From positions 1-57,314 of the forward strand of contig JAFYZR010000082.1 of NCBI GenBank assembly GCA_017557345.1: a DNA stretch of 57,314 nucleotides. The letters run 5' to 3'. The DNA is from Paludibacteraceae bacterium (GTDB lineage Bacteria; Bacteroidota; Bacteroidia; Bacteroidales; Paludibacteraceae). Below, piece after piece: positions 3,228 to 52,940 of this stretch. Both the position numbers and the translations under genes were made by a program. The notes under the pieces were generated by a model that made no database searches, was not told the DNA's origin, and was given only the letters and a program-made list of their open reading frames with translations. How positions within the stretch are numbered: the stretch's first letter is position 1; the number at the start of each line of letters is the position of its first letter.

Positions 3228-3381
3228 ATAAATCACCTACAAATCACCTACAAATAACCTACTAATAACCTACTAATCACCTACTCAAATAATGTAGAGA
3301 AATGTAGGAGGAATTTTTAATTATCTATATATAATTTTTTAATTATCTATTTATAATTGTCTAATTATCTATTTAAAATTG
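3228..3381. repeat. 11-bp phased array A, 14 units
   Basis: From 3228 the sequence divides into 14 consecutive 11-mers without a phase slip. The first five are close copies (ataaatcacct, acaaatcacct, acaaataacct, actaataacct, actaatcacct). Later units alternate between tttaattatct and atttataattg types, giving an extra 22-bp repeat. Units 6-8 are more diverged (3283-3315) and carry AGAAATGTAGGA. The array lies between two intrinsic terminators, so little transcription should cross it. It is not a CRISPR: it has no spacers and the units are too short. Confidence 0.85.
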
Positions 3382-3405
3382 CCATTTTTTAATATAAATA
3401 TTACT

Positions 3406-3434
3406 ATCCGTCATATTCTGCGACGGATTTTTTG
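3406..3434 (+). terminator. Second intrinsic terminator, downstream of array A
   Basis: ATCCGTC (3406-3412) and GACGGAT (3422-3428) form a 7-bp stem followed by a T run. It closes the spacer just before the promoter of the next gene. Confidence 0.75.
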
Positions 3435-3461
3435 TTTTTATTTACGATTATTTGAAAAAGG

Positions 3462-3492
3462 TTGCATATAATATAGAAAAATAGTACTTTTG
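3462..3492 (+). promoter_or_regulatory. Promoter of the glycosyltransferase gene
   Basis: TTGCATATA at 3462 and TACTTTTG at 3485-3492, with 20 bases between TTG and TA. The start codon follows 32 bases later. Confidence 0.8.
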
Positions 3493-3524
3493 CACTATGT
3501 TTAACAATAAAAACAGGTAAAAGT

Positions 3525-4772
3525 ATGCGAATTCTATTTGTGGTAAATAGTTACTTCAGTCAAGGAAACGGCCTTGACGAGTCAGCAAGAAGAACCGTAC
3601 AAGCGTTACGCGAGGCAGGGCAAGAAGTAAGAGTTTTGTCAGGAAAGAACTTTGAAGATCCGAACGGACCTCAACCGGAATATCCCATGGAAAAATTCCA
3701 TTTTCCTTTGATGCAACCTATGTTGGATTCCTTCGGTTACGCTTATGCAGATTGGCACGGCCCGATGGTAGAAGAAGCCGTTCGTTGGGCGGATGTCATT
3801 CATCTGGAAGAGACGTTTTTCCTCCATCATGCTGTTATGAACTGGGCTAAAAAACTCGGCAAACCCATTACAGGCACTTATCATGTACACCCGGAAAACA
3901 TAGTGTATAACTGTCTGGGCTTCACAGGAGGAAATCTTATCTGCCAAATACTCTATCGCTATTGGTGCCGCGTGTTCTACGATAATTACAAATATCTCCA
4001 ATGTCCTACGGATAATGTGCGTGACCGATTGATTCGCCATCGCGTTAAAGCCAAATGTTTCACGCTTTCTAACGGAGTGATTCCCGATGAATGTATTCGT
4101 CCAACCACTCCTCCGGCTGACTATTTCGACGAAAACCGTCCATTAGATCTCATTTATATCGGCCGTACGGCCATAGAAAAAGACCAGCCGACTCTTTACA
4201 AGGCTATTCGTCTCAGCAAATACGCAAAGCGTATCCGTTTGCATATAGCCGGTCGCGGACCGAAACTGAAAGCTTATACCCGCATGGCAAATAAACTATA
4301 CAAAGATGGTGTTGTTTCATACAAACCTACTGTCGGTTTTTATAATCGTGACCAGCTCCGCAAATTGGCTGCTACAGCCGATCTGGCCGTTCATTGTGCC
4401 ATCGTGGAGGTGGAAGGAATGAGCATTACCGAGGCACTCCAGCAAGCTGTTGTTCCCGTTATTGCTACCGCACGTTATTCCGGAACGGATACATATGCCT
4501 TGGATAGCTGCAGTAAGTTCCCTGCAAAAGATGCCAGAGCTTTAGCGCAACGAATCGATTATTGGTTTGATCATCCGCAGGAACGTTGGGAAATGGGATT
4601 CAAATATGCCGAATCCATGAAGCAATATAAAATTGCTTATTGTGCCCAAAAACTCATAGAAATGTTCCAAAAAGCGATAGAAGAAAACGAAAATGAAAAA
4701 ATATTTCCTAATATTACTATGCTTTCTGCCATTAAGCGCCGGGTCGTCAGACTCTACAAGCGTATCGCATAA
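3525..4772 (+). CDS. GT4-family glycosyltransferase
   Basis: 415 residues. The N-terminus MRILFVVNSYF followed by a Gly-rich loop, and the two-Rossmann layout, mark a GT-B group 1 (GT4) enzyme. The second half holds GRTAIEKDQPTL (acceptor to donor domain switch) and, near residue 293, VEVEGMSITEALQQA, the E-x7-E motif that contacts the nucleotide-sugar donor. It should transfer a sugar from an NDP-sugar to a glycan or lipid in the cytoplasm; donor and acceptor cannot be told. It starts a two-gene unit: the next coding region begins 80 bases before this one ends. No membrane segment is evident. Confidence 0.85.
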   Translation: MRILFVVNSYFSQGNGLDESARRTVQALREAGQEVRVLSGKNFEDPNGPQPEYPMEKFHFPLMQPMLDSFGYAYADWHGPMVEEAVRWADVIHLEETFFLHHAVMNWAKKLGKPITGTYHVHPENIVYNCLGFTGGNLICQILYRYWCRVFYDNYKYLQCPTDNVRDRLIRHRVKAKCFTLSNGVIPDECIRPTTPPADYFDENRPLDLIYIGRTAIEKDQPTLYKAIRLSKYAKRIRLHIAGRGPKLKAYTRMANKLYKDGVVSYKPTVGFYNRDQLRKLAATADLAVHCAIVEVEGMSITEALQQAVVPVIATARYSGTDTYALDSCSKFPAKDARALAQRIDYWFDHPQERWEMGFKYAESMKQYKIAYCAQKLIEMFQKAIEENENEKIFPNITMLSAIKRRVVRLYKRIA

Positions 4773-5472
4773 TATCATTCATACACAATGGTTTAGCCAT
4801 AAAGAGAACCAATATCGCCGAGTAGATATTTATGTGCCGCCAATAATATCCAATGTCCAATCTCCAATCTCCAATGATAAATACCCCGTTTTGTATTTAT
4901 TGCATGGCATAAATGGCTACGAAGGCTCATGGCAAGATCAAGGATTTGCAATCGATACCTTGCAGGCACTTATGGCTTCCGGACGTTGCCAGCCCATGAT
5001 TCTTGTCATGCCGGACTGCAATAAATGGCCGTACAAAGAGCGTCCTTCGCATCATAGTAATCTTTGGAAATGCGTTCTCCATTATCGCAAACTAAGCCGG
5101 GAACATGAAATCGAATATGCCATAAGTGACTTGATCGATATGATCGACACTACGTATAATGTCTCGTCTTGCGCTATTGCCGGACTTAGCGATGGCGCCA
5201 GAATGGCTGCAAATGTTGCGAATAAACGACCTGACCGCTTACAGACAATCGGGCTTTTCTCGCCTGTTTTGCGCAAAGATCAGTTACCAAAAGACTCAAC
5301 GCAAAGCTATTGCATTTATGTCGGACAAGATGATATGTTCTTCGCAAGCGGAGCGCGATTTCATAGACGGTTAGAAAAAGAAAACTATCCGCATCAATGG
5401 ATAGTTTTACCGGGACATCATAACTGGAAAATGTGGAGAAAATGCTTGTCGGATTTCTTAGAAAAGCTTTAA
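4693..5472 (+). CDS. Secreted alpha/beta-hydrolase esterase
   Basis: 259 residues with a clear signal peptide (MKKYFLILLCFLPLSAG), which supports this start despite an 80-base overlap with the glycosyltransferase gene. The core resembles the putative esterase / feruloyl-esterase-like (CE1) family: LLHGINGYEGSW oxyanion region near residue 72, nucleophile elbow G-L-S-D-G with Ser166, a probable acid around Asp214-215, and His near residue 238 in PGHHNW. Natural substrate unknown; acyl groups on surface or dietary glycans are typical for the family. A short microrepeat (4850-4875) encodes NVQSPISND in an N-terminal loop. The 3' end overlaps the convergent DUF2851 gene by 15 bases. Confidence 0.75.
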   Translation: MKKYFLILLCFLPLSAGSSDSTSVSHNIIHTQWFSHKENQYRRVDIYVPPIISNVQSPISNDKYPVLYLLHGINGYEGSWQDQGFAIDTLQALMASGRCQPMILVMPDCNKWPYKERPSHHSNLWKCVLHYRKLSREHEIEYAISDLIDMIDTTYNVSSCAIAGLSDGARMAANVANKRPDRLQTIGLFSPVLRKDQLPKDSTQSYCIYVGQDDMFFASGARFHRRLEKENYPHQWIVLPGHHNWKMWRKCLSDFLEKL

Positions 5473-6711
5473 TTGCCGTTCTTGGAAAATCTTATATCCC
5501 ACTTCGCAGTTGATACATTCATGGTGCTGACAGTAATTTTGATAAAGATGCAAAAGTGCCTGCGTATCGGCTGCATTTTTTATCTCTTGGCCTAATACGC
5601 GCCATTGGCGGATAATTGTGTTATTCTCTGCCGGAATCTTTTCCATCAGCGCGATAATATCCGTTTCTTGGTTCAGATGCTTGGCGTACGCATATTTATA
5701 CGGCAAAACGGTATTAATCAGCAGTATTTCGATACTCGCTTTGCCCAACTGAGGAATATTGGACGTTGCATTTAATTCAAACAACCGCACTAATTCTTTC
5801 AAATCATTGGTATCCAATATCTTACTCAGCAAACTTTCCGATTGATGCATCAGTTGTGCAAACTGGCGAATCCGTAATTCCGGACTATTTTGCGGCCTTA
5901 ATTTGCCATGCTTCCAAACACTTCCGTCCATCGGACTCAACCCAAATTTTGTCCGCAAGAATTCATATTCCTTCTGCAATCCACTAATCCCTTCATCCTC
6001 TAATCCACTAACCCCTATTAGGCCGGATTGGCCTAATAATAATGCCGTTAACTGAAACAGACTATTCCGATGTTTCTGCAGATACGAAAGAGGTGTATTG
6101 ATAGCCAGTTGTTCAAAGGGTAAACTATTGGTATGGAAGCCGAAATTGCGCGCTAACGAAATATACAACGCATGTTCCCAACTGCCTTTTGTGATTTCCA
6201 ATAATCTCAAAATAGAAGCTCGCTTGCATTCTAATCGCTTCAATAACAGCGTTTTGCGCCATCCTTCTGTCAGCAATCCGGGTTCACGCAATAACTGTTC
6301 CGCACATCCGATCCTGCCAACCGCACTATCCATCTGCTGAGCCGCAGCAAACAATTCACTCAGATAATCCTTATCCGAAGGATAATTCAATTCACATTGC
6401 GGCACCAGTTCTCCTTGCGCATTCCAAACAGGCTTGTCTGCGGTCCGAACGACATGCAAAATCACATTATCATAAGCCTTATCCAGATGATGGTGATGTT
6501 TCGTCCAATCGCTCGAGCAAACATGAATCTCAATATTTCCTACCCACTCTTTTCCGTCAATCCGAACGCGCGCATGGCTGTAATCCGGACCTGCATCTTT
6601 GTTATGCTCACCAACCGACAAAATCTCAACGGACTTTCCGTCCGTAGTCTTTTGTTCAAAGCCTGCCCACAGGCATTTCTCCCAAATATAATGTAAAACT
6701 ATCTCTGGCAT
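5458..6711 (-). CDS. DUF2851 family protein
   Basis: 417 residues, a family common in Bacteroidota with no established function. The N-terminus (E-x-LHYIWEK followed by G-x-N-x-DAGPD and GNIEIHV, then SDW) is the conserved part and has the look of a nuclease-type D/E core, though activity is unproven. An in-frame microrepeat at 5979-6020 adds a peptide GVSGLEDEGISGLQ in the middle of the protein. It is the last gene of a long minus-strand run, its start overlaps the preceding EEP gene by 13 bases, and its end overlaps the convergent esterase gene. Confidence 0.75.
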   Translation of the reverse strand: MPEIVLHYIWEKCLWAGFEQKTTDGKSVEILSVGEHNKDAGPDYSHARVRIDGKEWVGNIEIHVCSSDWTKHHHHLDKAYDNVILHVVRTADKPVWNAQGELVPQCELNYPSDKDYLSELFAAAQQMDSAVGRIGCAEQLLREPGLLTEGWRKTLLLKRLECKRASILRLLEITKGSWEHALYISLARNFGFHTNSLPFEQLAINTPLSYLQKHRNSLFQLTALLLGQSGLIGVSGLEDEGISGLQKEYEFLRTKFGLSPMDGSVWKHGKLRPQNSPELRIRQFAQLMHQSESLLSKILDTNDLKELVRLFELNATSNIPQLGKASIEILLINTVLPYKYAYAKHLNQETDIIALMEKIPAENNTIIRQWRVLGQEIKNAADTQALLHLYQNYCQHHECINCEVGYKIFQERQLKLF

Positions 6712-7673
6712 TCTAAAATAATTGGCAGATGGTCCGAATAGCCGTTTTGATACGTAAATCCGTTATATGTCCTTTTAGGTTTCAAACCCATATATCTCTC
6801 ATCCGTCTCTTGAATCCATTCCTCATCATAAATCCGCACAGTAGAAATACTATCCATTGCCGCAGAGACATAAAATTGATCCAGACATGTCCATTGTCCC
6901 TGGTATTTATGCGTCCCCTTATCCTTCATCCTTTCATTTTTCATTTTATTTCTCATGCCGGCAAGATCTTCTTTCGGTTCACTATTCATATCTCCCATCA
7001 CCACAATCTTTGCCTCCGGATGTACACTAAAAACGGAATCTACAGCCTCTTGCAATACCCGTTTAGTTATTTCTCTTTTCCACTCACTCTCTGCCATTCC
7101 TCCTCTTTGACTCGGCATATGGCATACAAAGAAATGAATCGTATCTGTTTTATCCACTTTAGCGCAGACATACAGAATATCGCGGGTGATTAAATTACTA
7201 ATTCGCTCATTCCCTAATTCGCTAATTCGAATACTTCTTGTTCGAATTGTATCTACTCTGCTCTTCTTATAAATCAGCGCCACATCTATTCCTCGCTCAT
7301 CCGGACTCTCATAATGCACAAAATCATACTCTCCGCGTCGTAATGTATAGCATAATCGCTTGACAACCAGTGCATTCTCAACTTCTTGCATACCAACTAC
7401 ATCTACTCCATCCCACTCGCCGATATTCGTCAATACCCGCGCAATATTCTCTTCTTTTTTATAATACCGTGTATAACTCCATTTTCGCTCACCTTCCGGC
7501 GTCCATTCCCAATCATCTTTTTCTATTCCCGCAACTGTATCATGTTTCGGATGAAAAAGATTCTCAACGTTATAACTCACGATCCGTAAAGGTTCGCCAT
7601 ACATGATGCCGGTGACCAACAATCCCATCAGAATAGTTACGATGTTATGTACTATGTAATACCTGGTCATCAC
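6699..7673 (-). CDS. Endonuclease/exonuclease/phosphatase (EEP) family protein
   Basis: 324 residues with an N-terminal hydrophobic segment (about residues 8-25), so probably exported or membrane-anchored. EEP motifs are present in order: SYNVENLF near residue 34, MQEVEN, a GDMNSEP metal/catalytic block, and a C-terminal SDHLP. The fold covers Mg-dependent DNases, phosphodiesterases and lipid phosphatases; the substrate is not readable here. Two simple-sequence insertions are encoded in frame: RISELGNERISNL (7192-7230) and RNKMKNERMKDK (6919-6957). It follows sufS by 24 bases and overlaps the DUF2851 gene by 13. Confidence 0.82.
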   Translation of the reverse strand: MMTRYYIVHNIVTILMGLLVTGIMYGEPLRIVSYNVENLFHPKHDTVAGIEKDDWEWTPEGERKWSYTRYYKKEENIARVLTNIGEWDGVDVVGMQEVENALVVKRLCYTLRRGEYDFVHYESPDERGIDVALIYKKSRVDTIRTRSIRISELGNERISNLITRDILYVCAKVDKTDTIHFFVCHMPSQRGGMAESEWKREITKRVLQEAVDSVFSVHPEAKIVVMGDMNSEPKEDLAGMRNKMKNERMKDKGTHKYQGQWTCLDQFYVSAAMDSISTVRIYDEEWIQETDERYMGLKPKRTYNGFTYQNGYSDHLPIILECQR

Positions 7674-7697
7674 GTATCTTATCCCGTGATTTTGAAT

Positions 7698-21560: not shown

Positions 21561-21611
21561 AACCCCTTAACCCCTAATTCGCTAACTCACTAATCGCTAA
21601 TTCGTTAATCG
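21561..21611. repeat. Degenerate octamer microrepeat (CTAATTCN type)
   Basis: Successive units cctaattcg, ctaactca, ctaatcg, ctaattcg, ttaatcg between the divergent mreB and tRNA-Ala promoters. The same style of repeat recurs at 22491-22543 and inside genes. Confidence 0.7.
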
Positions 21612-22306: not shown

Positions 22307-22394
22307 GGTCAATACCTGGTAATTACGTATGAATTACGTGGTAATCCTAGACAATACACGTACTCTCATCGTACCTTCACCGTATCCTCATTTC
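22307..22394. repeat. 11-bp phased array B, about 8 units in a 5' leader
   Basis: Eight consecutive 11-mers: ggtcaatacct, ggtaattacgt, atgaattacgt, ggtaatcctag, acaatacacgt, actctcatcgt, accttcaccgt, atcctcatttc. CGT recurs at the end of five of them in fixed phase. The array lies between the -7 box (22400-22407) and the ATG (22265) of the minus-strand gene, so it should be transcribed as leader RNA. Confidence 0.78.
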
Positions 22395-22465: not shown

Positions 22466-22493
22466 AAAATGAAAAGAGCGTCCAAAGACGCCC
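22466..22493 (-). terminator. Terminator of the surface-protein pair
   Basis: Read on the minus strand: GGGCGTC-tttg-GACGCTC (22493-22476) followed by TTTTC and a second T run. It lies about 70 bases after the stop at 22566. Confidence 0.75.
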
Positions 22494-22543
22494 TAATCAC
22501 TAATTCACTAATCCCTAACTCCCTAATTCTCTAATTCGTTATT
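22491..22543. repeat. Degenerate octamer microrepeat in a 3' untranslated region
   Basis: Seven near-copies of CTAATTCN: cctaatca, ctaattca, ctaatcc, ctaactcc, ctaattct, ctaattcg, then ttatttct. It lies between the stop codon at 22566 and the terminator hairpin. Confidence 0.75.
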
Positions 22544-34287: not shown

Positions 34288-34353
34288 ACACGTATAACAT
34301 AGCTATTGCATACGTGTTACATAGGTAATGATACCGATGAGATACCGAGAGGT
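34288..34353. repeat. 11-bp phased array C, 6 units
   Basis: acacgtataac, atagctattgc, atacgtgttac, ataggtaatga, taccgatgaga, taccgagaggt: unbroken 11-base phase, with ATAG/ATAC starts in units 2-4 and TACCGA starts in the last two. It is upstream of the DUF4294 gene and downstream of proS, which is also minus-strand. Confidence 0.65.
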
Positions 34354-35965: not shown

Positions 35966-37942
35966 ATGAAAGTTAAATATCTTATTCTAGGCTTCATTAT
36001 GTTAGCCTCCTGTACTCAAAAAATGTCGATGGAATCGGAAGAAAATGCGTCTCGTGGTGTACAACAAGCTGCAGCGCTTTGGACAGAACAAGATGGTACT
36101 AAAGCAGAGTTTGATCAGCTGGTGGCAGATTATTTATGTCAAACAGATGAAGAAAAACAAGCGCTGTTTGAGTCACTCAGCCGAATATTTGAGAATATCT
36201 ATCAATCGGCAGATATGCTAACGGTAGAATTATTGCGACCAACGCAATTGACTAACGCTTCCGAACCGCAAGAACCTGATTGGATTATGTCAGGATATAG
36301 TCCATTGGCGCATTTTTCGGATGATATGTTTGCTAATAAACTTGCCTTTATCACTATCATCAATTTTCCGCACTATACGTTAGAGGAAAAGAATACACTC
36401 GGGCGTAATTGGAGTCGTCAAGAATGGGCGTATGCACGTATGGGGGATGTATTTACAACCCGTGTCCCTGCCGAAGTAAACACTCGTCTTGCGCAAGTCT
36501 TTGCCAATGCGGAGAACTATATAGCCGATTATAATATCTACATGGGAAATCTGCGTACGGAAGATGGCAGACAACTATGGACGGACGATGTCATTTTACT
36601 CAGTCACTGGAATTTGCGTGACGAATTGAAGGCCTTGTACCAATCGGATAATTTAGAAACCAGAGGAAAGAACCGCGAGAAGCAGGAAATGATTTATCAA
36701 GTGATGCAACGCATTGTTAATCAGACAATTCCAAAAGCCGCTATCAATGGATCTACTTTTGTTTGGAAACCCTATTCCGATGCCTCGGAAAGCGAACCCT
36801 ATACGCGCTATGAGAGGATATTAGATATAGCCCATGCCTATTTTGCAGAAGACAGATATTGTCCATCTGCACCAACGGGTATTATGCGTAATTTTGAAGA
36901 AGGCGTTGAAATTCCCGCCGATGAATTAGATAGTTTGTTCCGTGCCCTAGTTGGATCGAAGCAAGTACAGCAAGTGGCTGCCATAATAAAAGAACGTTTA
37001 GGTAGAGAATTGCGTCCGTATGATATATGGTTCGATGGTTTTAAAGCGCGTGCATCGTTGAACGAAGATGAATTATCCGCACAAACTCGGAAACTATATC
37101 CTAATGCTGAGGCTTTTGCTGCAGACCAATCCCGTTTGCTTCAACAGATGGGATTTTCCTCGATGAAATCGAAAGAAATAGCCTCTCACATAGCCGTAGA
37201 ACCTGCTCGCGGTTCCGGTCACGCATGGCCATGCCTTGGCAGAAAAGAAGATGCCCGTCTGCGCACCCGCATTGCTTCCACCGGTATGGATTATAAAGGT
37301 TATAACATCGCCGTACATGAGTTTGGCCATTGTGTAGAACAAGTTCTGGATATGTATTTCATTGATCATTATATGCTTTCCGGTGTGCCAAATACGGCAT
37401 ATACAGAGGCTTCTGCATTCTTATGGCAGCATCGCGATTTGCAGTTATTACCCGGAGCAAAAATGGGCAACGGAATTCATAATCCGGATGAAGTTTTTGA
37501 TCAATTTTGGTCAATGTATGAAATTATGGGTGTTAGTTTGGTCGATATGGCTATGTGGCGATGGATTTATGCGCATCCAAAAGCTACAGCAAAAGAACTT
37601 TGTGAGGCAACTATACAGATTGCTAAAGATGTTTGGAATCAATACTACGAACCGGTTTTAGGCGAACATAACTGTATTCTATTAGGTGTATACAGCCACA
37701 TGGTTAACGCCCCGATGTATCTACCGAATTATCCATTAGGTCATATTGTTCAATATCAATTGGAGGAACACTTGGCTGGTTGTAAAACGCAACAAGAATT
37801 CGCTCAAGAATACGAGCGCATTTATCGTTTAGGCCGATTGACGCCAAAAGAGTGGATGATTCAGGCTGTAGGAGAAGCGCCATCTATTGAGCCTATACTC
37901 CGCGCAGTGGATACGCTTTGCGTAAAGACTCAAAACGAGTAG
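35966..37942 (+). CDS. HExxH zinc metallopeptidase lipoprotein
   Basis: 658 residues from the ATG at 35966; the open frame extends back to 35576 through proS and the promoter, which is spurious. A lipoprotein signal (MKVKYLILGFIMLASC, Cys16) sets the start. VHEFGHCVEQ holds H451-E-x-x-H455 and a downstream Glu near 481 in YTEASAF fits a gluzincin third ligand. The rest is helix-rich, resembling M3/M49-like peptidases; the exact family is uncertain. Likely at the outer membrane or periplasm. The 3' end overlaps pdxB by 50 bases. Confidence 0.75.
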   Translation: MKVKYLILGFIMLASCTQKMSMESEENASRGVQQAAALWTEQDGTKAEFDQLVADYLCQTDEEKQALFESLSRIFENIYQSADMLTVELLRPTQLTNASEPQEPDWIMSGYSPLAHFSDDMFANKLAFITIINFPHYTLEEKNTLGRNWSRQEWAYARMGDVFTTRVPAEVNTRLAQVFANAENYIADYNIYMGNLRTEDGRQLWTDDVILLSHWNLRDELKALYQSDNLETRGKNREKQEMIYQVMQRIVNQTIPKAAINGSTFVWKPYSDASESEPYTRYERILDIAHAYFAEDRYCPSAPTGIMRNFEEGVEIPADELDSLFRALVGSKQVQQVAAIIKERLGRELRPYDIWFDGFKARASLNEDELSAQTRKLYPNAEAFAADQSRLLQQMGFSSMKSKEIASHIAVEPARGSGHAWPCLGRKEDARLRTRIASTGMDYKGYNIAVHEFGHCVEQVLDMYFIDHYMLSGVPNTAYTEASAFLWQHRDLQLLPGAKMGNGIHNPDEVFDQFWSMYEIMGVSLVDMAMWRWIYAHPKATAKELCEATIQIAKDVWNQYYEPVLGEHNCILLGVYSHMVNAPMYLPNYPLGHIVQYQLEEHLAGCKTQQEFAQEYERIYRLGRLTPKEWMIQAVGEAPSIEPILRAVDTLCVKTQNE

Positions 37943-38852
37943 GATCTGCTTTGAGAGATTGTGTAATAGCAGCGAGCCATGGTTCGTTGCTATTTTTGCA
38001 ATTTGAGGATACTCCGGAATAGGGATATTTAGAGAGATCTATTTTCGGTAATTCGAATTGTTCTGCAATGCCATCAAGACACATTTGAGAGGCATTTCGT
38101 TTGCCTTCTACAGAATAACCTGCTATATGCATAGAAGCAAGCAAAGCATGTCGCAATACGTCGGGATGGATATTGGGCTCATTTTCCCATGTATCTATAA
38201 TATACGGATGTCCGCTACGCAAAAGTGCTTGCTCATCGATAACTCCCCCTCTTGCTGCATTAATAATTAAGGCATTGGGTTTACATTGGGTTAGAAATGA
38301 CTCATCGCACATATGGTAGGTGGATGTATCAAGCGGCACGTGGAAAGTGATAATATCGCAATTTTTGGCGATTTCATCGAGTGGAACACCGATTCCTTTT
38401 GGCGGATCATTAAGCAACACAGTATATCCTTTCCGCTTAGCCATCTTAGCTACCAAAGAACCAACATGCCCGACACCAACTATTCCGATTATTGGCGACT
38501 TATGAGTTTTTATTTTTTCAATTTTATATTCCAGGAGAGCTTCTTCTATATAATCGCAAACCGCTTGAGCGTTACAACCAGGACAAGACATCCATTGAAT
38601 ACCATGGCATTCGCAATATGCTGTATCTATATGATCGTAACCAATCGTGGCTGTGCAGACAAGTCGCACGCGCGATTCGCTTAATAAAGCCTCATTTACT
38701 TTGGTGCGAGTTCGTATGACCAAGACATCTGCATTCTGTATGGCGGCAGCATCTATTTCTTCCGATTCCATCGGATAAATATCGACGGTTGGCCATACGT
38801 TTTGAACGGCTTCGACGATAAAAGGAATATGTTTGTCGCAAATGATCCGCAT
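37893..38852 (-). CDS. pdxB: Erythronate-4-phosphate dehydrogenase
   Basis: 319 residues. The start MRIICDKHIPFI, then TATIGYDHIDT, GCNAQAVCDYI, NAD-binding GIVGVGHVGSLVAKMA, INAARGGVIDE and HIAGYSVEGK are PdxB signatures of the D-2-hydroxyacid dehydrogenase family. It acts in pyridoxal phosphate synthesis. Shorter than the roughly 380-residue enterobacterial protein because the C-terminal dimerisation region is reduced. The upstream spacer holds array D. Confidence 0.92.
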   Translation of the reverse strand: MRIICDKHIPFIVEAVQNVWPTVDIYPMESEEIDAAAIQNADVLVIRTRTKVNEALLSESRVRLVCTATIGYDHIDTAYCECHGIQWMSCPGCNAQAVCDYIEEALLEYKIEKIKTHKSPIIGIVGVGHVGSLVAKMAKRKGYTVLLNDPPKGIGVPLDEIAKNCDIITFHVPLDTSTYHMCDESFLTQCKPNALIINAARGGVIDEQALLRSGHPYIIDTWENEPNIHPDVLRHALLASMHIAGYSVEGKRNASQMCLDGIAEQFELPKIDLSKYPYSGVSSNCKNSNEPWLAAITQSLKADPTRFESLRKAYPLRGV

Positions 38853-38877: not shown

Positions 38878-38915
38878 ACCAGGTAATAATAAGGTAATAA
38901 TAAGGTAAAAACACC
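38878..38915. repeat. 11-bp phased array D, 3-4 units
   Basis: accaggtaata, ataaggtaata, ataaggtaaaa, then a weak fourth unit. AGGTAA recurs at 38881, 38892 and 38903. It lies in the spacer between panC and pdxB, both minus-strand. Confidence 0.7.
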
Positions 38916-38940: not shown

Positions 38941-39795
38941 TCAGTACTTAATATTGTCAATCAGTCTTACGGGGCCACAATAAACGGTGACGCAACCGAT
39001 AGCATGATGGAAGGTATTTGTGGGAAGCAGTGTCGATTGATCTACTATTTCATAGTATTCCACTTCTAACCCCGGAACGGCATTGATGGTATCAATAACG
39101 CGCTGTTGAACCTCAGAAACAGAAGCTGATTTAGCCCATTTTAACGAGTCAAATAGCGTTTTACTAATTGCAAGAGCCGTTAGTTTTTCACTATCTGAAA
39201 GCCTCTCATTACGACTGGATAATGCTAATCCCGAATCTTCGCGAATTATAGGACAATCCACAATCTGCAAATTACCGAATGTTCCTGCCATAGAACTACG
39301 TTCTACCATATGATGGATGATAGCCAATTGCTGAAAATCTTTCTCCCCGAAATAAGCTTTATCCGGCTGAACAAGGTAGAATAATCTACTGACAACTTGC
39401 ACTACACCGTTAAAATGTCCCGGGCGCATTTTACCTTCCATCACTTTGTCCAATCCCGCAAAATCAAATGCGAACGTTGTATTCAATTCTTCTTCTGAAT
39501 ACATTTCTTCGGGTGTAGGAGCAAAAACAAAATCTGCACCAATAGAACTAAGTAATTCAGCATCACGCTCTATGTTACGAGGATACTTGGCCAGATCTTC
39601 TTTGTTATTGAATTGAGTTGGGTTTACAAAAACAGAAACAAAGCAGACATCATTTTCTTCTACTGCTTTTTGAACGAGCGAAGCATGACCTTGATGCAAA
39701 GCACCCATAGTAGGAACCAAGCCAATCGTTTTTCCCTCGTTCTTACATACCTTAACGGCTGCCTGTAAGTCTTTTTTCGTTGTAATGATTTGCAT
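38941..39795 (-). CDS. panC: Pantothenate synthetase
   Basis: 284 residues, normal. GLVPTMGALHQGHASLVQKA, VSVFVNPTQFN, YFGEKDFQQLAIIH and SSRNERL are the conserved ATP- and pantoate-binding blocks. It joins pantoate and beta-alanine. Divergent from the glycogen-synthase-like gene, an arrangement common in Bacteroidales. A -7-like box TAACTTTG lies at 39846-39839. Confidence 0.96.
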   Translation of the reverse strand: MQIITTKKDLQAAVKVCKNEGKTIGLVPTMGALHQGHASLVQKAVEENDVCFVSVFVNPTQFNNKEDLAKYPRNIERDAELLSSIGADFVFAPTPEEMYSEEELNTTFAFDFAGLDKVMEGKMRPGHFNGVVQVVSRLFYLVQPDKAYFGEKDFQQLAIIHHMVERSSMAGTFGNLQIVDCPIIREDSGLALSSRNERLSDSEKLTALAISKTLFDSLKWAKSASVSEVQQRVIDTINAVPGLEVEYYEIVDQSTLLPTNTFHHAIGCVTVYCGPVRLIDNIKY

Positions 39796-47241: not shown

Positions 47242-47333
47242 AATTGTTTTTGTTATTTTGTTTTTATTGTTAAAAAGTTTCACTTTTGCATGTGTATAAC
47301 GCGCACATTCGTGTGCGATACACAAAAAGTGCG

Positions 47334-47364
47334 CAAAATTACAAAAAATATTTGACATGTGCAA
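47334..47364 (-). promoter_or_regulatory. secDF promoter
   Basis: Minus strand TTGCACATGTCA, 20-base spacer, TAATTTTG (47341-47334). Leader about 85 bases. Confidence 0.82.
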
Positions 47365-47381
47365 GAAAAAAGCAGAAAAAC

Positions 47382-47412
47382 TTGTGTATTTACAATTTTT
47401 ATTGTACTTTTG
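47382..47412 (+). promoter_or_regulatory. Promoter of the first four-helix membrane protein
   Basis: TTGTGTATTTAC at 47382, 20-base spacer, TACTTTTG at 47405-47412. The leader contains a three-codon open frame (Met-Glu-Ser-stop, 47423-47434) before the ATG at 47459. Confidence 0.78.
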
Positions 47413-47458
47413 CAGTCGGTTTATGGAGTCATAAGCAGAAAAAAGATCGTTCAAAGCG

Positions 47459-47932
47459 ATGTATCGCCGTTGGATATACATGGCGATCGCTATCTTGGCA
47501 GCAGCCTTGTTGCCGGTAAAGCCTGTGTTCTTGTTTCAAGAGGACAAAGGCATCATCTACGTCCGCAGTTTTTCCATGGATCAGAAAGAGTTTGTGGTGA
47601 CGCAAACGGAAATGAAAACAGGGATTGAGCAAATCACAGCAACGATGTCGGTCAAGGGACTGTATTATTGCTATAAAGTGATGTTATGGGGCACGATATT
47701 ATGTTTGCTGTGTTTCTACCGTCGTCGTTGGCGGATAGCCATATGCACAGCTGTGACGGTTGTCGCAGGCATCTATTATGCGCTGATGATTTACTATGCC
47801 GTTCGGATGGCCGATCTCCATTATGCAACGCTCTATCCCAGCTGGACTGCTATCTTGCCGGCGATTGTGCTGCAGATGATGCTTATGACACGTCAGAACG
47901 TCATCAATTCTGTGACCGACGATGAATGGTAG
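47459..47932 (+). CDS. Four-helix membrane protein, paralog 1 (DUF4293-like)
   Basis: 157 residues with four hydrophobic helices (about 5-23, 65-83, 90-112, 123-140). After helix 1 comes FQEDKGIIYVRSFSMDQK, then TATMSVKGLYYC. It is plainly homologous to the protein at 52278-52817 along its whole length. Size and layout resemble DUF4293 of Bacteroidota; no function is known. The 3' end overlaps the convergent gene by 29 bases. Confidence 0.7.
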   Translation: MYRRWIYMAIAILAAALLPVKPVFLFQEDKGIIYVRSFSMDQKEFVVTQTEMKTGIEQITATMSVKGLYYCYKVMLWGTILCLLCFYRRRWRIAICTAVTVVAGIYYALMIYYAVRMADLHYATLYPSWTAILPAIVLQMMLMTRQNVINSVTDDEW

Positions 47933-48341
47933 CTTTGAGTTCCTGCATGATCATCGTTCTAACAAAAGCATCAAAGCGGACATATCTTCTTTTGGTTCCT
48001 CTTTTCGGGTCATAAGTAGCGAAAGGGTCGGGTTTAGATCCTCGTGTCACGTATAGTTGTGCTTCGAACCGTTGTTGCCAATATTCGTACTGTTTCGGGT
48101 CGCTAAGTGCTTTATCCATGATAGCAGAGGCTTTCTTAAAGAGGTCTTGGTTTGCTTTTTCTTCGCCTCTGGCGGGTTTGCGCTTATAATTACGCGGGTG
48201 CTTGACATCGTATGTCTCTTGCACTCCGACACCGATAATACGTCCTCTTGCGTCCCTAAAACGCTTTACACGATGGATGTGTCCGGGCGACGTTGCCCCG
48301 TTGATTTCTACGATTGCATTAGCCAGTTTTTCTCTTGCCAT
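47904..48341 (-). CDS. Small basic uncharacterised protein with an 11-bp array in its leader
   Basis: 145 residues, basic, no signal peptide. It begins MAREKLANAIVEINGA, continues with an Arg-rich stretch (HRVKRFRDARGR), then EEKANQDLFKKASAIMDKALSDP, YWQQRFEAQL, a Lys/Arg-rich loop and an amphipathic C-terminal helix. No family recognised. It can be aligned loosely with the protein at 21843-22265, and both genes have the same promoter form and an 11-bp phased array in the leader. The basic character would suit nucleic-acid binding, which is inference. Confidence 0.68.
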   Translation of the reverse strand: MAREKLANAIVEINGATSPGHIHRVKRFRDARGRIIGVGVQETYDVKHPRNYKRKPARGEEKANQDLFKKASAIMDKALSDPKQYEYWQQRFEAQLYVTRGSKPDPFATYDPKRGTKRRYVRFDAFVRTMIMQELKATIHRRSQN

Positions 48342-48360
48342 AGTATAGATTTTTTATCGA

Positions 48361-48404
48361 ATCACACAATAATCACGCAATAATCACTCAATAATCACCC
48401 AATA
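48361..48404. repeat. 11-bp phased array E, 4 close units in a 5' leader
   Basis: atcacacaata, atcacgcaata, atcactcaata, atcacccaata: four copies differing at one position, which is a different base in each. It lies between the promoter (48474-48504) and the ATG (48341) of the minus-strand gene. Confidence 0.88.
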
Positions 48405-48473
48405 ACGGTCCGATGCAGCCCCGATTTTTACTAGCTTTACGACCTGTTTGATGGCTGAGTACGAATTTGAGTG

Positions 48474-48504
48474 CAAAGATACAAAAAATAAATGACATAC
48501 GCAA
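48474..48504 (-). promoter_or_regulatory. Promoter of the 145-residue protein gene
   Basis: Minus strand TTGCGTATGTCA, 20-base spacer, TATCTTTG (48481-48474). The leader is about 125 bases and includes array E. Confidence 0.83.
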
Positions 48505-48544
48505 ATGCATATGCCATTTTCTGTTATTTAATTTATGATTATCT

Positions 48545-48952
48545 TTAATCATCAAATATATCAGCCACAAAATATTCCATTTCGTCGACATCTTTTTGTA
48601 ATTTACGTGTTAGACGTAGGAACTCTTTGTGCCATTGTATCAATTCCTCTCTGGAATCATTGAGCATTAGTCGGTACAAATTCATGAGGCGACAATATAA
48701 AAGTACCTTATCCTCTGGCAAACAAGCCGCTAATGCAGATATAACATCCTTAATTGTTTCGCTCTCGGTTATTGCTTCGGGCGAAATATTTATCTTGAAA
48801 TAATTATTGAGGAATCGGCAGAAAGCCTCCGCCTCTTCAGTATTTCTCATGAGATTTTCTTCCCAATCCAGCACTTGGGTGTTAATTTCTCGCTTAGCAA
48901 AATAGATTTGGAGCAAGTCCTTGCTCGTAATTTCATGTGTTACGCAAATCAT
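48545..48952 (-). CDS. Uncharacterised small helical protein
   Basis: 135 residues from the ATG at 48952 (MICVTHEIT); an upstream ATG at 48979 is possible. Acidic and helical, with no signal peptide or recognised domain. The segment NYFKINISPEAITESETIKDVISALA has the rhythm of a carrier-protein helix bundle but lacks the modified serine context, so that idea is weak. Last gene of the operon DUF1232-UDG-like-sORF-this gene. Confidence 0.55.
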   Translation of the reverse strand: MICVTHEITSKDLLQIYFAKREINTQVLDWEENLMRNTEEAEAFCRFLNNYFKINISPEAITESETIKDVISALAACLPEDKVLLYCRLMNLYRLMLNDSREELIQWHKEFLRLTRKLQKDVDEMEYFVADIFDD

Positions 48953-49040
48953 GATTGCTGTTGTTTTGTAAAATATCAATCAAATCTTGTACACTTTTCC
49001 CTGATTGAGGATAAGGATCTTCACAAATTAATATACCCAT
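48933..49040 (-). CDS. Candidate 35-residue small ORF
   Basis: Starts 18 bases before the end of the UDG-like gene and stops 20 bases inside the next one, so it bridges two genes by overlap. Peptide start MGILICEDPYPQSGK, then a short helix VQDLIDILQ. There is no spare coding space between its neighbours otherwise. No homology recognised; the evidence is only its position and coupling. Confidence 0.35.
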   Translation of the reverse strand: MGILICEDPYPQSGKSVQDLIDILQNNSNHDLRNT

Positions 49041-49668
49041 AATTGATTTTTTTCTTAATAGTTTCTATCACATTATACCATTCATTCCAAGAATATGCGG
49101 CTGAAGGGTGGTATACCCCAAGAGCATGGACAACATGCCCGCTTGGCAGAGTATAATAACCAACTTCCTCGTGCTCTTTGGAATCAAAATTAATAATAAG
49201 AGGCTCGCTATCGCTCCAATATGTGTAAGGCAGATGATGCCAGAGTCTTTTACCCCACACAATCATTAATTGCGGGCGTAAGGTCTCCAATACGGAGAAG
49301 AATGCATCTTCTGACTGTTTGTATTGTGCTTTTGTTCCTGCTTGTCGAGGTGCTTTCATCGGCACTTGAAGATAGTTATAAAAAGCAACTTCATCCCAAA
49401 TCAGGCTACTCTCATTAATGTTGGTCTTATGTCCGACCAGTGATCTTTCAAACTTGAGGTAGGTATTCATCCAGCCCTCTCGTTCGACATTTGGGTTGAG
49501 ATAGCCCCTGATAACGTTTGTCGTGAAGTTGGCACATTCTGGATGTGCGCCACAATGTCCGCAATTTCGGCACAACTTGTTGCAATAATGGCTTTCGCCC
49601 AGAACAAGCAGTCCTGTCTTTGCGTAATTTGTACCCACATGGGGTAGGAAAAAGGGTTGCATCAACAT
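49021..49668 (-). CDS. Uracil-DNA-glycosylase-superfamily-like protein with a Cys cluster
   Basis: 215 residues. LLVLGESHYC near residue 22, LMIVWGKRLWHHLP near 140 and a late VYHPSAAYSW fit the order of motifs in the UDG superfamily fold (motif 1 GE..., central beta strand, final H-P-S). Between motifs 1 and 2 is HYC-x3-C-x2-C-x2-C-x4-C, unlike ordinary UDGs, suggesting a metal or Fe-S site. Glycosylase activity is not implied. Starts on the last base of the DUF1232 stop (TAATG). Confidence 0.55.
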   Translation of the reverse strand: MLMQPFFLPHVGTNYAKTGLLVLGESHYCNKLCRNCGHCGAHPECANFTTNVIRGYLNPNVEREGWMNTYLKFERSLVGHKTNINESSLIWDEVAFYNYLQVPMKAPRQAGTKAQYKQSEDAFFSVLETLRPQLMIVWGKRLWHHLPYTYWSDSEPLIINFDSKEHEEVGYYTLPSGHVVHALGVYHPSAAYSWNEWYNVIETIKKKINYGYINL

Positions 49669-50033
49669 TACTTGTTAAAAATGTCATTTAATTTGTTTTG
49701 AGCCTGCTCCTTAATAGCCGGCGTGATACTTGAACGTACAGTTGCAATTGCTGCAGTTAAAGCGGCCAAGTCATCCGTATAACCGACTACAGGAAGGAAA
49801 TCGGGGATAAAATCAGTCGGTAAAATCAGGTAACCCAAAGCTCCCAAGATAACGAGCTTCTGTTTATGTGGCACATCCGGTGATGTTAATACATAGTACA
49901 GGAGCAATGCCTGATAAACGATTTTACGACCGGCTTCATTAGCCAATACTTTTACTTTGTTCCAAAATTTAGAGTCTGAATACTCCTTTTGATAGTCTGC
50001 AGTTTGAACGGCTACGGTTAAATTTTTATTCAT
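49668..50033 (-). CDS. DUF1232 (YkvA-like) membrane protein, copy 1
   Basis: 121 residues. The core VILGALGYLILPTDFIPDFLPVVGYTDD (split: ILGALGYLILP, DFIPDFLPVVG, YTDDLAAL) is the DUF1232 signature, with one hydrophobic hairpin. Function unknown. Homologous to copy 2 at 50244. First gene of the second small operon, read from 50106-50136. Confidence 0.85.
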   Translation of the reverse strand: MNKNLTVAVQTADYQKEYSDSKFWNKVKVLANEAGRKIVYQALLLYYVLTSPDVPHKQKLVILGALGYLILPTDFIPDFLPVVGYTDDLAALTAAIATVRSSITPAIKEQAQNKLNDIFNK

Positions 50034-50105
50034 AAGTTAATTTTTTTTGCCTTTCGGCGGTTAATAAAATTTTTAATTATGTCATTCGATTTTCGAAAGA
50101 CGGTG

Positions 50106-50136
50106 CAAAAATATAGTTTTTATATAATATGAGCAA
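50106..50136 (-). promoter_or_regulatory. Promoter of the copy-1 DUF1232 operon
   Basis: Minus strand TTGCTCATATTA, 20-base spacer, TATTTTTG (50113-50106). Leader about 65 bases. Confidence 0.75.
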
Positions 50137-50148
50137 GCATAAGTAGAT

Positions 50149-50194
50149 AAAAAAATATCGGTTTCCAACAAATCAGCAATGTTTGGAAACCGAT
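50149..50194 (-). terminator. Terminator of the upstream small operon
   Basis: A 12-bp perfect stem ATCGGTTTCCAA (50157-50168) with TTGGAAACCGAT (50183-50194), followed on the minus strand by ATTTTTTT (50156-50149). Confidence 0.85.
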
Positions 50195-50243
50195 AGATAG
50201 ATAGTTCTAAAAACTAGGCGTTTTTTGGAAAAATCTCCTTTTG

Positions 50244-50636
50244 TTACATTCCGAGGTCGGTCAATTCTTGATCCGATATATCTTTATACAATTTTTTCAT
50301 TTGTTCCCTAGCTTTTCGTTTCGCATCAGGCCCAATATGACTACCCACTTTTGCAAAAACAAAGGCCAAAGCAGCTAAGTCATCGCTAAAACCGACTACA
50401 GGATAGAAATCAGGAATAAGATCTAATGGAAGGATAAAGTAACCCAGTGCTCCAATAACTAATGCCTTTTCGCCGGCTGACATGCTATCTTTGGCATAAT
50501 AGAGTAATAAAACTTTTGCGATAACAATCTGTCCGGCCTTTGCTGCTGTTTCCTTGAGTTTATCCCAGAAACTGGATTCGTCATAGTTTTTTTGATATTG
50601 CTCAATATTTTCAGGTTTCTTTGCCATACTTATCAA
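50244..50636 (-). CDS. DUF1232 (YkvA-like) membrane protein, copy 2
   Basis: 130 residues; the ATG at 50627 (MAKKPEN) is an alternative start. Signature VIGALGYFILPLDLIPDFYP then VVGFSDDLAALAF. About half identical to copy 1 in the core by eye. Third and last gene of the operon beginning with the zinc cross-brace protein. Confidence 0.85.
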   Translation of the reverse strand: MISMAKKPENIEQYQKNYDESSFWDKLKETAAKAGQIVIAKVLLLYYAKDSMSAGEKALVIGALGYFILPLDLIPDFYPVVGFSDDLAALAFVFAKVGSHIGPDAKRKAREQMKKLYKDISDQELTDLGM

Positions 50637-50638
50637 TC

Positions 50639-51511
50639 TTAATTTTGATTAAATTTTCCTTTGATTAATTGTTGCGTATATATAATAAGTGCTAGCATTG
50701 CACATGCATGCCATGTCGTTTTAATGTTAGGCAGCCATTTTTTGAGTTTTTCGCGCGTATTTTTTTTCTGTTCCACATTATTTCCATAAATAACGGATAG
50801 CAAATCCACTTCCTGCATCCTCTCATAAACCTCATCGATGTCAATACCGTTCTTTCGTGCAAGTTTTAACTTTTTTACAGTACAAATTGATAAAGCAAGA
50901 TAATAAAGGGGGTTGCCTTCGTCATAAAGTTGGTAGCCTTCGTTCCGCAAATCAATAAGTTGCTGGATATCTTCTGACTTACGACCTTCTTTTTCGTACT
51001 GTTTTAGGGAGATATCCGGTGTGTTAATAGCATTTCTGCAGAAGTTCATCGTCTGCAATTCGTTCATATCTTTGACGATAACTAACATAATTTTTACCGC
51101 AGGGATAACTTGCTTGTCTATTCTGACCAAAAGTTCTTCTGGATTAACTTCTTTTAACATTATATCCTCATCACCTTCTTTTGGTGGACGAAGAGGAAAT
51201 GTGTTAACAAAATATACAAGGGACCACCATAATTGCGCATACTCTTTTTGCTCGAACCAAAGTTTCTCTAAATATTCATCGCTTTTATTTGAAACATCTA
51301 TTACAAGGTCGTCGATTTTATTTGCCAATGTTTGATCGTTTTTAGAGTCGAAATGATACTCGCCCAACTCTTCTGCCAGAGCGGAACGTGAACCAAATAA
51401 TTTGCTTTTCGCTTCATCTATACTATTGTTGTTGTTGTTGTTTTTATAGACTTCAAGAAGCGAAAGCAATGTTCGTAATTTAGCAGGTGGGTAATAATCT
51501 TTATAGTTCAT
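50639..51511 (-). CDS. Uncharacterised 290-residue protein with a C-terminal hydrophobic helix
   Basis: Largely charged and helical, no signal peptide. An Asn run near residue 23-29 comes from a GTT repeat at 51425-51443 and is likely to vary in length. One hydrophobic stretch near the end (ACAMLALIIYT, about residues 268-280) may be a tail anchor. No family recognised. It lies between the zinc cross-brace gene (8-base gap) and DUF1232 copy 2 (2-base gap), so the three probably form an operon. Confidence 0.6.
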   Translation of the reverse strand: MNYKDYYPPAKLRTLLSLLEVYKNNNNNNSIDEAKSKLFGSRSALAEELGEYHFDSKNDQTLANKIDDLVIDVSNKSDEYLEKLWFEQKEYAQLWWSLVYFVNTFPLRPPKEGDEDIMLKEVNPEELLVRIDKQVIPAVKIMLVIVKDMNELQTMNFCRNAINTPDISLKQYEKEGRKSEDIQQLIDLRNEGYQLYDEGNPLYYLALSICTVKKLKLARKNGIDIDEVYERMQEVDLLSVIYGNNVEQKKNTREKLKKWLPNIKTTWHACAMLALIIYTQQLIKGKFNQN

Positions 51512-51519
51512 CTCTATGT

Positions 51520-52062
51520 CTATTTTATGCCTATTCCCTCATAGTTATAAACTGAAAATTTATAGTTACCTTCAGAATCTGTATCTTTATTAAAACGCAC
51601 ATTGATAACATTGTGACAACCTAAGTGAGCAGCAAAAGCCTTCATCATCTGTTCTGCCTCGTTTCTGTCCTTGAAATATAAAGTTTTAATATGTATTTCT
51701 TCCGAGTGGTTTGGAATACGACCTTGATAGCGGTAGCTATATAATCTCACATTATCTATTCCAATGGTTTTTGCATTTCGAATCATCGTCTGTACTGTAG
51801 ATTTAAAAGAACGGTAGCATGAAGGGCAAGCATATGCATATCTACTAGACCAGCCTATGTGAGATTTCTCTTTTAATTCATAATCGTTATATAACCAATA
51901 GTTTTGAATTGAATAAAGAAACGCGAAAAGTTCTGCGTCTACTTCTGGATCAAAGTGGAACTTTGTAGCACAATCATGGCAAATTGTGGCATTACAAAAA
52001 CAACACGTGTAATCTCGATTTAAAAAGCCAAGATGACGCTGGCAAATTTTACATATTCCCAT
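51520..52062 (-). CDS. Zinc cross-brace (FYVE/LIM-like) protein
   Basis: 180 residues. The N-terminus holds CKIC-x11-C-C-x-x-C-x4-C-x-x-C, the spacing of an interleaved zinc finger, and a later CPSC (about residue 79). A C-terminal domain of about 70 residues is alpha/beta. Function unknown; such fingers in bacteria often bind membranes or partner proteins. First gene of the small operon, with promoter 52157-52187. Confidence 0.6.
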   Translation of the reverse strand: MGICKICQRHLGFLNRDYTCCFCNATICHDCATKFHFDPEVDAELFAFLYSIQNYWLYNDYELKEKSHIGWSSRYAYACPSCYRSFKSTVQTMIRNAKTIGIDNVRLYSYRYQGRIPNHSEEIHIKTLYFKDRNEAEQMMKAFAAHLGCHNVINVRFNKDTDSEGNYKFSVYNYEGIGIK

Positions 52063-52156
52063 GTTAATAGATTTTGTAGTTACTATTAAAATTTGTTATC
52101 TTTATTTTATGCGCTGTTGACACCAGCATAAAGGTAAATGATAACTTATGCGAGTG

Positions 52157-52187
52157 CAAATATACAATAAAAAAATGACATACGCAA
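52157..52187 (-). promoter_or_regulatory. Promoter of the zinc cross-brace operon
   Basis: Minus strand TTGCGTATGTCA, 20-base spacer, TATATTTG (52164-52157). Leader about 85 bases. Confidence 0.8.
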
Positions 52188-52203
52188 GAAAAAAGCGAAA
52201 AAT

Positions 52204-52234
52204 TTGCGTATTTGGAAAATTTATTGTACCTTTG
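52204..52234 (+). promoter_or_regulatory. Promoter of the second four-helix membrane protein
   Basis: TTGCGTATTTGG at 52204, 20-base spacer, TACCTTTG at 52227-52234. Confidence 0.82.
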
Positions 52235-52277
52235 CAGCCGAAAAACGCTATAAGCATGGCGCTTAGTAAGACGAAAA

Positions 52278-52817
52278 ATGGAAAAGAAGAAAAAAATAAA
52301 CATTCCTACCTGGGCAAAACAAGTAATCTGTATATCCGTGGCAATTATTGCATCGGGATTATTGTTGAAACTGCCTGTTTTTTCCTTTCAAGACGATAAA
52401 GGAATAATGTATGTGCGTAGTTTTTCGATGACACCAAAGACTTTCTATGTCATGCAAACAGAAATAGCGACAGGTATAGAGGAAGTGTCGGCAACAATGT
52501 CTGTGGCGGGTTTATATTACTGTGCGTGGGCAATGTTATTAACGTCTCTAGTTTGTCTGCTATGCATTTATAATAATCGCTGGAGAATGATATTATGCGT
52601 AGCTGCGGCTTTTTTCGCAGGTGCGTATTATCTATTGATGATATATTATGCGATAGAAATGACAGGCAATCATTACTCCACTTTATATCCTAATTTTGTC
52701 GCTCTCTTGCCGGCAGTAGTGTTGCATATGATGTTACTGGTTCGCCGCAATCTTGCACAATCAATCATGGCAGAGAATGAGGATGAGGAACAAGAAGATG
52801 AGTCTGTCGAGTCATAA
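52278..52817 (+). CDS. Four-helix membrane protein, paralog 2 (DUF4293-like)
   Basis: 179 residues, four hydrophobic helices (about 15-32, 77-96, 103-124, 135-152) and an acidic tail EDEEQEDESVES missing from paralog 1. Shared blocks with 47459-47932: F-Q-[ED]-DKGI-x-YVRSFSM, [QT]-x-T-E-[MI]-x-TGIE, SATMSV-x-GLYYC, and [YH]-x-TLYP. Function unknown. Upstream sequence is also similar to that of paralog 1 (GCAAGAAAAAAGC ahead of both), which points to duplication of gene plus promoter. Confidence 0.72.
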   Translation: MEKKKKINIPTWAKQVICISVAIIASGLLLKLPVFSFQDDKGIMYVRSFSMTPKTFYVMQTEIATGIEEVSATMSVAGLYYCAWAMLLTSLVCLLCIYNNRWRMILCVAAAFFAGAYYLLMIYYAIEMTGNHYSTLYPNFVALLPAVVLHMMLLVRRNLAQSIMAENEDEEQEDESVES

Positions 52818-52865
52818 AAGATAACAGACTGCATAAAAAGTATATAATACTATGTATCATATAGT

Positions 52866-52896
52866 AAAAGGACGAAATTTCACATTTCGCCCTTTT
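52866..52896. terminator. Bidirectional terminator between paralog 2 and pckA
   Basis: AAAAGG-a-CGAAAT-ttcac-ATTTCG-c-CCTTTT, with A and T tracts at both sides. Confidence 0.85.
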
Positions 52897-52900
52897 ATCT

Positions 52901-52940
52901 TATAGGTATCCTATAGGTATGTTATAGGTATCCTATAGGG
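52901..52940. repeat. 11-bp phased array F, 3.6 units
   Basis: tataggtatcc, tataggtatgt, tataggtatcc, tataggg. It lies between the pckA stop (52953) and the shared terminator, so it is probably in the pckA 3' untranslated region. Confidence 0.85.

Follow-up and report, generated by a model that had tools for sequence, protein, structure and literature searches.

Intergenic arrays of 11-bp period in a Paludibacteraceae genus and their link to an expanded family of small basic proteins

What do six short tandem arrays with a common period of 11 bp do in the intergenic DNA of a single bacterial genome? The arrays (A to F) lie in a stretch of 57,314 nucleotides, hereafter the window, from a Paludibacteraceae bacterium (assembly GCA_017557345.1, contig JAFYZR010000082.1); the contig is 144 kb long, the window being its first 57 kb, and belongs to a genome of 2.84 Mb and 155 contigs. 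By PckA, the closest named records are metagenome genomes assigned to Paludibacteraceae, from goat reticulum and rumen, and one assigned to Bacteroidales. The original prediction, made from the letters of the window, held that the six arrays share only their period and that a protein or RNA complex repeating once per helical turn would fit them. The explanation we favour, with a probability of roughly 0.6, is that the period-11 arrays serve as cognate DNA sites for small, mostly basic proteins whose family has expanded in this lineage and is a distant relative of Pfam DUF6266. According to this scheme, the genes of most close paralogues would carry an array, usually of their own unit, in the leader before the start codon. 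The protein would probably bind its own leader array, one unit per helical turn and with the units on one face of the DNA, and would probably control its own gene; such cooperative one-face binding and autoregulation are suggested by the presence of a tandem site, spaced at one turn of DNA, in the protein's own leader. Gene-less copies of several such arrays would be scattered in the intergenic DNA of the same genome, turning over between species, and the protein, rather than other recombination, would drive their spread.

Period-11 arrays as an intergenic class

The period of 11 was recovered at all six arrays. Tandem Repeats Finder (TRF) reported it at A (3226-3284), D, E and F, and arrays B and C, too degenerate for TRF at score 30, have their highest autocorrelation at lag 11 (0.52 and 0.53, respectively). 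What had been described as array A turned out to be two arrays, the second of which (3314-3380) has a period of 22. All six (6/6) are intergenic, as predicted, according to our own hexamer-based gene-calling script, in which start positions may be off.

The proposed genome-wide class was also borne out. A 770-kb sample of the same genome, scored by self-shift segments, contains 38 period-11 arrays in ~54 kb of intergenic DNA against 3 in 714 kb of coding DNA; the raw count was 39, one being a run of N, and the shuffle baseline of 1.0 comes from that same run. Intergenic arrays with periods 9, 10, 12 and 13 numbered 0, 2, 1 and 0 in this sample. When 15 genomes of the genus were pooled, intergenic loci with periods 7, 8, 9, 10, 11, 12 and 13 amounted to 103, 48, 8, 10, 110, 1 and 1, and coding loci to 91, 18, 9, 1, 5, 4 and 0. 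For period 11, this means 110 arrays in 193 kb of intergenic DNA and 5 in the 1.83 Mb of coding DNA. Thirteen of the 15 genomes have one or more period-11 loci, and none was found in 46.7 kb of intergenic DNA from three genomes of other families of the order. Array densities in three of the 15 genomes (G000, G011 and G015) are inflated because their stretches were partly picked for matches to array A. The stretches of the remaining 12 genomes were not so picked, and in G003 and G006 contigs with known matches were passed over; here, ~90 kb of intergenic DNA yielded 48, 10, 6, 5, 36, 0 and 0 loci for periods 7 to 13, and 10 of the 12 genomes had period 11. In this Paludibacteraceae-like genus, period 11 defines a genuine class of intergenic arrays. 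Two outcomes had been named beforehand as counting against the idea, namely, no excess of period 11 over other periods and random placement in coding DNA; neither was observed, and the idea survived.

Counts that peak at 7, 8 and 11 and nearly vanish in between do not look like the product of general slippage. Arrays of period 7 and 8 match those of period 11 in abundance within the genus, yet they populate coding DNA too (103+48 intergenic and 91+18 coding loci), and among the sampled genes they showed no link to the protein family described below; they are a separate class. In the window, such arrays, with CTAATTC- and AATCCACT-like units, are found at 21574-21611, 22493-22537, 7198-7229, 5978-6011 and 4845-4875.

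A protein family with arrays in its leaders

Arrays B and E precede genes of one family, and the features concerned are the following:

47904-48341, minus strand: P0001, 145 aa, basic, family member
48360-48405, minus strand: array E, period 11, in the P0001 leader, sense unit TTATTGnGTGA
48472-48481, minus strand: -7-type box TATCTTTGCA before P0001
21843-22265, minus strand: P0002, 140 aa, probable divergent family member
22307-22394, minus strand: array B, degenerate period 11, in the P0002 leader, between a -7-like box and the start codon
22398-22407, minus strand: -7-type box TATCTTTGCA before P0002

The exact sequence TATCTTTGCA, which we take to be a Bacteroidota -7-type promoter box, occurs twice in the window, before P0001 and before P0002, and in both cases the array separates the box from the start codon. 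Array E consists of four copies, with n differing in each, and is retained together with its gene in three other genomes of the genus (L238, L239, L240). Array B scores below 12 in our array scan. Arrays B, D, E and F had been proposed to be transcribed as leader, spacer or 3' tail; B and E are clear leader arrays, the only two in the window, and both go with family genes.

P0001 has no Pfam or NCBIfam match of its own, and the family has no curated name. P0001 found matches in 20 of 25 genus genomes, and a wider profile, built partly from matched genus members, in 59 of 61, with 1 to 24 matches per genome; across the order, the same profile matched in only 2 of 149 genomes, namely, the window's own and another whose match was weak. 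P0002 is a probable divergent member of the family. Missed by an earlier profile (at E 1), it was retrieved at E 0.025 among 1,967 proteins with a profile not containing P0002 itself, and its look-alike in G015 (L076:12168-12602) reached 2.8e-4. The predicted order of strands and helices in P0002 is also similar to that of the family, the alignment behind this prediction having held family rows.

Protein matching, with the query counted in, selected 24 loci; at 22 of them, a period-11 array with a score of at least 12 lies within 300 bp upstream, and the units of these arrays mostly differ from locus to locus. Adding all 11 other complete members seen in the window's own genome brings the count to 29 of 35. 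At 30 loci, comprising the 24 and those six own members that have arrays (own members without arrays were left out), period 7 occurs in two, period 8 in one and periods 9, 10, 12 and 13 in none; tandem direct units lie upstream in 28 of the 30 and downstream in one. Among sampled genes, an array within 250 bp was found for 9 of 16 family members versus 62 of 1,650 others (p 2.5e-9); neither periods 7-10, 12 and 13 nor the downstream side was significant. One of the 16 is truncated at a contig end, and two are the second and third genes of a tandem triple. Four of the 16 overlap the 30 loci; five of the other 12 have an array.

Twelve complete members were seen in the window's own genome, plus two fragments at contig ends. 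By score, a leader array is present in eight (P0001, C90:10, C67:21490, C52:6954, C40:34878, C83:28625, C6:1615 and C114:37392). P0002 has the degenerate array B. The remaining three (C67:39772, C32:2054 and C151:37116) lack an array upstream, but C151:37116 has one on its 3' side. Two near-identical leaders, G000:C90:453-547 (L022) and G000:C124:35-105 (L036), have copy numbers exactly one 11-bp unit apart and lose their similarity just past the -7-type box. Both are located at contig ends, so the assembly may be broken there by a gene that is duplicated or varies between strains. The unit of the C40 member, ACACGTAAACG, is found again on another contig, where five copies form an array within a called gene (L026:19259-19314). 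In G017, three divergent members stand in tandem (L087:651-1754), with a single array before the first.

The family proteins have a median net charge of +7.4 per 100 aa (29 members) versus -1.5 in 134 size-matched proteins, and they are predicted to form a beta-hairpin and three helices; no relative of known structure was found. Residues R24 and K26 of the hairpin, invariant in alignment A1, are candidate contacts with the array. The protein version of the once-per-turn complex fits a mostly basic family in which most paralogues are preceded by their own array. Among the genus members scanned there was no Pfam transposase match, and one member reached an integrase model at E 0.11.

More distant relatives point in the same direction. 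When 197 other genomes of the order were searched with a short-subfamily profile at E 0.01, 11 gave matches. Seven relatives were fetched, and in four of them the 400 bp upstream contain a period-11 array; another, L283, is preceded by a period-13 array instead. Six of the seven (L280 was left out) were scanned against Pfam, and two of them, found with family profile A4 and coming from other genera, matched DUF6266 (PF19781) above the cut-off: L281 at 1.8e-14 and L284 at 4.1e-10. Both have upstream period-11 arrays. The scanned members of the genus, which are also shorter than the DUF6266 relatives, gave no DUF6266 match above the cut-off (0 in the window's own genome). Within the phylum, DUF6266 was found in 11 of 148 genomes; 14 of the 16 matches listed were read, the two left out starting at a contig end or holding stops. 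Their upstream stretches show period 11 in five cases and period 10 in three (L288-L290), with both in one. For the distant relatives pooled, a period-11 array is present in the ~430 bp upstream at 9 of 21 loci, and period 10 at 3. The expected number of period-11 loci is 0.02 by shuffling, or 0.08 from the rate in 80 pckA loci, a background that is mostly coding DNA, hence low for upstream regions, rather than one of control genes matched within each genome. Allowing for this, the linkage between array and gene extends past one genus, and the period-10 and period-13 cases suggest that spacing may vary between subfamilies. No paper in the literature collection searched contains the word DUF6266.

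Scattered copies and what could explain them

Other arrays of the class stand away from family genes, array A being an example:

3220-3285, minus strand: array A, period 11, unit AATnACCTACn

Read on the minus strand, it gives AGTAGGTGATT, as does the leader of the family member G000:C90:10-435. Array A is a scattered copy with no family gene adjoining and differs by 1 mismatch from the unit of that paralogue. The same unit occurs at nine further places in the genome and also elsewhere in the genus; of the 11 matches that the query gave in the genome, one was to array A itself and one to the query's other half. In a second family, F2, with the unit CGCACTWATMR, seven copies could be aligned in the sample, one of which is the leader of the family gene C67:21490. 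The flanks of the F2 copies are conserved, palindrome included; such likeness of whole arrays with their flanks suggests that an array is copied in one piece. Most F2 copies have the palindrome GTATTATATAC/GTATATAATAC beside the array (L046:1936-2030; copies in L019, L020, L024, L033 and L049). No terminal inverted repeats or target-site duplications were seen by eye in the aligned F1 and F2 copies, no systematic test having been made. The claim that the units are unrelated did not stand: the unit of array A recurs, arrays C and D are like a third group, F3, and units follow paralogues. Since units are shared within families, the claim holds only between families.

If each array were cognate to a particular protein, units should follow proteins. 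Protein distance and unit distance are indeed correlated among 27 members (Spearman 0.40, with 3 of 5,000 permutations as high), and the correlation persists without three near-orthologues (0.345, 7 of 5,000). Scattered arrays, that is, those away from detected family genes, are also close to the paralogues of their own genome: 42 of 94 come within 2 mismatches of an own-genome paralogue unit, whereas units of other genomes placed on the same 94 arrays gave a mean of 20.9 and a maximum of 39 (0 of 1,000 as good), and shuffled letters 2.8. Four arrays of G005 were dropped from this comparison, no unit being known there. When the genomes and the family that had guided the choice of stretches were excluded, 13 of 53 arrays matched, against a mean of 5.2 and a maximum of 11; of 1,000 draws, none equalled this by count and one did by mean distance. 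Unmatched scattered arrays are to be expected because many paralogues were not read. Two points weigh against the arrays being cognate sites of the family. The correlation between units and proteins can stem from shared descent of gene and leader, and F3, the most abundant group seen (one F3 array used as a query gave 40 matches in the genome), lacks a settled partner paralogue.

Alternatively, the proteins could be ordinary transcription factors with regulons, in which case the scattered arrays would be operators of regulated genes and not spread copies. The leader arrays at B, E, C90, C52 and C6 lie just 3' of a -7-type box (by eye; the box is exact at B and E), which is the usual place of an operator, and differing units and basic proteins would be in keeping with such a role, as would the weak match of one of 13 members to a PHROG of CII-like transcriptional activators (E 0.0027). 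However, the scattered copies do not sit like operators. They show no promoter bias, being distributed over codirectional, divergent and convergent gaps (61/23/16) in proportion to intergenic length (chi-square p 0.55), and 45 of the 61 in codirectional gaps are closer to the stop of the upstream gene. Their positions are also seldom kept between species, a period-11 array being present on both sides in 6 rows (3 reciprocal pairs) of 67 between-species gene-side comparisons. We therefore consider regulons unlikely.

Control at the level of RNA, with the protein binding a repeated motif in its own mRNA leader, would exploit the fact that 11 nt is about one turn of the A-form helix. The leader arrays would be transcribed if the -7 boxes are real, and many leader units contain GTGAT on the sense strand. 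Yet the scattered arrays have no clear strand preference: of 41 matched ones, 25 share the orientation of the next gene and 14 that of the previous one, a mild lean at most, and the C-rich strand relative to the two flanking genes is co/co in 18 cases, anti/anti in 19, anti/co in 15 and co/anti in 6. Convergent gaps are used too. The RNA or transcript part of the original prediction is thereby weakened for scattered arrays, because gap classes follow length and strand preference is not clear, and RNA-level control appears improbable.

Neutral slippage would make the arrays long simple sequence repeats with units of 5-11 nt, the subject of work by Mrazek and co-workers (as described in PMC4679880). 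Such an origin would be compatible with the one-unit difference in copy number between the C90 and C124 leaders and with the richness of the genus in 7- and 8-bp arrays. Slippage repeats, however, would have neither a tie to a gene family nor a sharp single unit length. The period-11 arrays are tied to one family, at period 11 only; their period is sharp, with 9, 10, 12 and 13 almost empty; coding DNA is nearly free of them; and the flanks of scattered F2 copies are conserved. All this makes slippage very improbable as their source. Finally, Rho utilisation sites are C-rich and G-poor in the transcript, with YC steps phased at ~11 nt, and a strong C/G strand skew (|skew| >= 0.8) is frequent among intergenic period-11 arrays of five genomes (33 of 91), but the independence of the C-rich strand from gene direction leaves this explanation with hardly any credibility.

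Known systems and the remaining arrays of the window

The plasmid partition site parC, bound by ParR, contains 11-bp direct repeats, and ParR is a small DNA-binding protein that autoregulates on its own leader. The family shares with it a small protein and tandem repeats spaced at a helical turn in the protein's own leader, with autoregulation probable here; it differs in that its arrays are chromosomal, numerous and made of differing units.

A parallel in genomic behaviour is offered by RAYTs, which the accessible text of PMC2817692 and PMC3116915 describes as Y1 transposases related to IS200/IS605 and flanked by two inverted repetitive extragenic palindromic (REP) sequences. As far as that text goes, the RAYT/REP-REPIN system likewise combines a fast-evolving gene, cognate short repeats beside it, scattered and mostly extragenic copies, apparent co-evolution of gene and repeat, and species-specific abundance. 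Repeats beside the gene and scattered extragenic copies are found here as well, but palindromic repeats in inverted pairs on both sides of the gene were not found at the 30 loci, where the repeats are tandem direct 11-bp units on the 5' side. The HuH motif is not kept either: the GHIH of P0001 is not conserved in its paralogues (alignment inspected by eye). Since the HuH motif is not kept and the repeats are tandem and one-sided, the family is not a member of the RAYT/REP system.

Two other repeats also share features with the arrays. BrickBuilt, a miniature inverted-repeat transposable element of Porphyromonas gingivalis, is also minisatellite-bearing, multi-copy, intergenic and from the Bacteroidales; unlike the period-11 arrays, it has a 23-nt unit and terminal inverted repeats, and the available text of PMC4596501 describes no linked protein family. 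The TAACTGA heptamer repeats similarly form many short tandem sets, intergenic and upstream of genes, some of them in Bacteroidetes too, but they have a single fixed 7-nt unit, and no cognate gene family is described in the part of PMC4679880 at hand.

A broader scenario can be put forward tentatively, at somewhat less than even odds. DUF6266-like proteins would form gene-repeat pairs throughout the phylum, reading tandem sites spaced at about one turn (11, sometimes 10 and perhaps 13 bp, depending on the subfamily), with each paralogue re-targeted and each seeding copies of its array; expansion in the genus, to as many as 24 matches per genome, would have produced most of its period-11 intergenic repeats. 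If the arrays are indeed cognate sites of the family, proteins of so far unstudied function would gain a role open to testing, and an abundant class of intergenic repeats in Bacteroidota would be accounted for. The family would also provide a natural series of related proteins in which the recognition sequence has seemingly changed many times and a candidate site lies before the gene, opening protein-DNA specificity and the origin of interspersed repeats outside RAYT/REP to experiment.

The other arrays of the window, none of which has an assigned strand, are as follows:

3314-3380: second array within the region originally described as A, period 22, with an A+T-rich unit TTTTTAATTATCTATTTATAAT that differs from the unit of array A, by TRF
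34288-34353: array C, degenerate period 11, including ATAGGTAATGATACCGATGAGATACCGA, like the abundant F3 group
38881-38911: array D, period 11, unit AGGTAATAATA, resembling F3
52896-52939: array F, period 11/22, unit TATCCTATAGG, after the pckA stop and before a terminator-like hairpin

The resemblance of arrays C and D to F3 was judged by eye. Array D is flanked by panC (38941-39795) and a pdxB-like gene (37893-38852). Array F has no period-11 counterpart at the pckA loci of three near relatives (L117-L119); the pckA locus of G005 has a period-11 array at the same place, with another unit (AACATGTGTAT). Half of the F2 palindrome, GTATATAATAC, is also found near array F (52840-52850).

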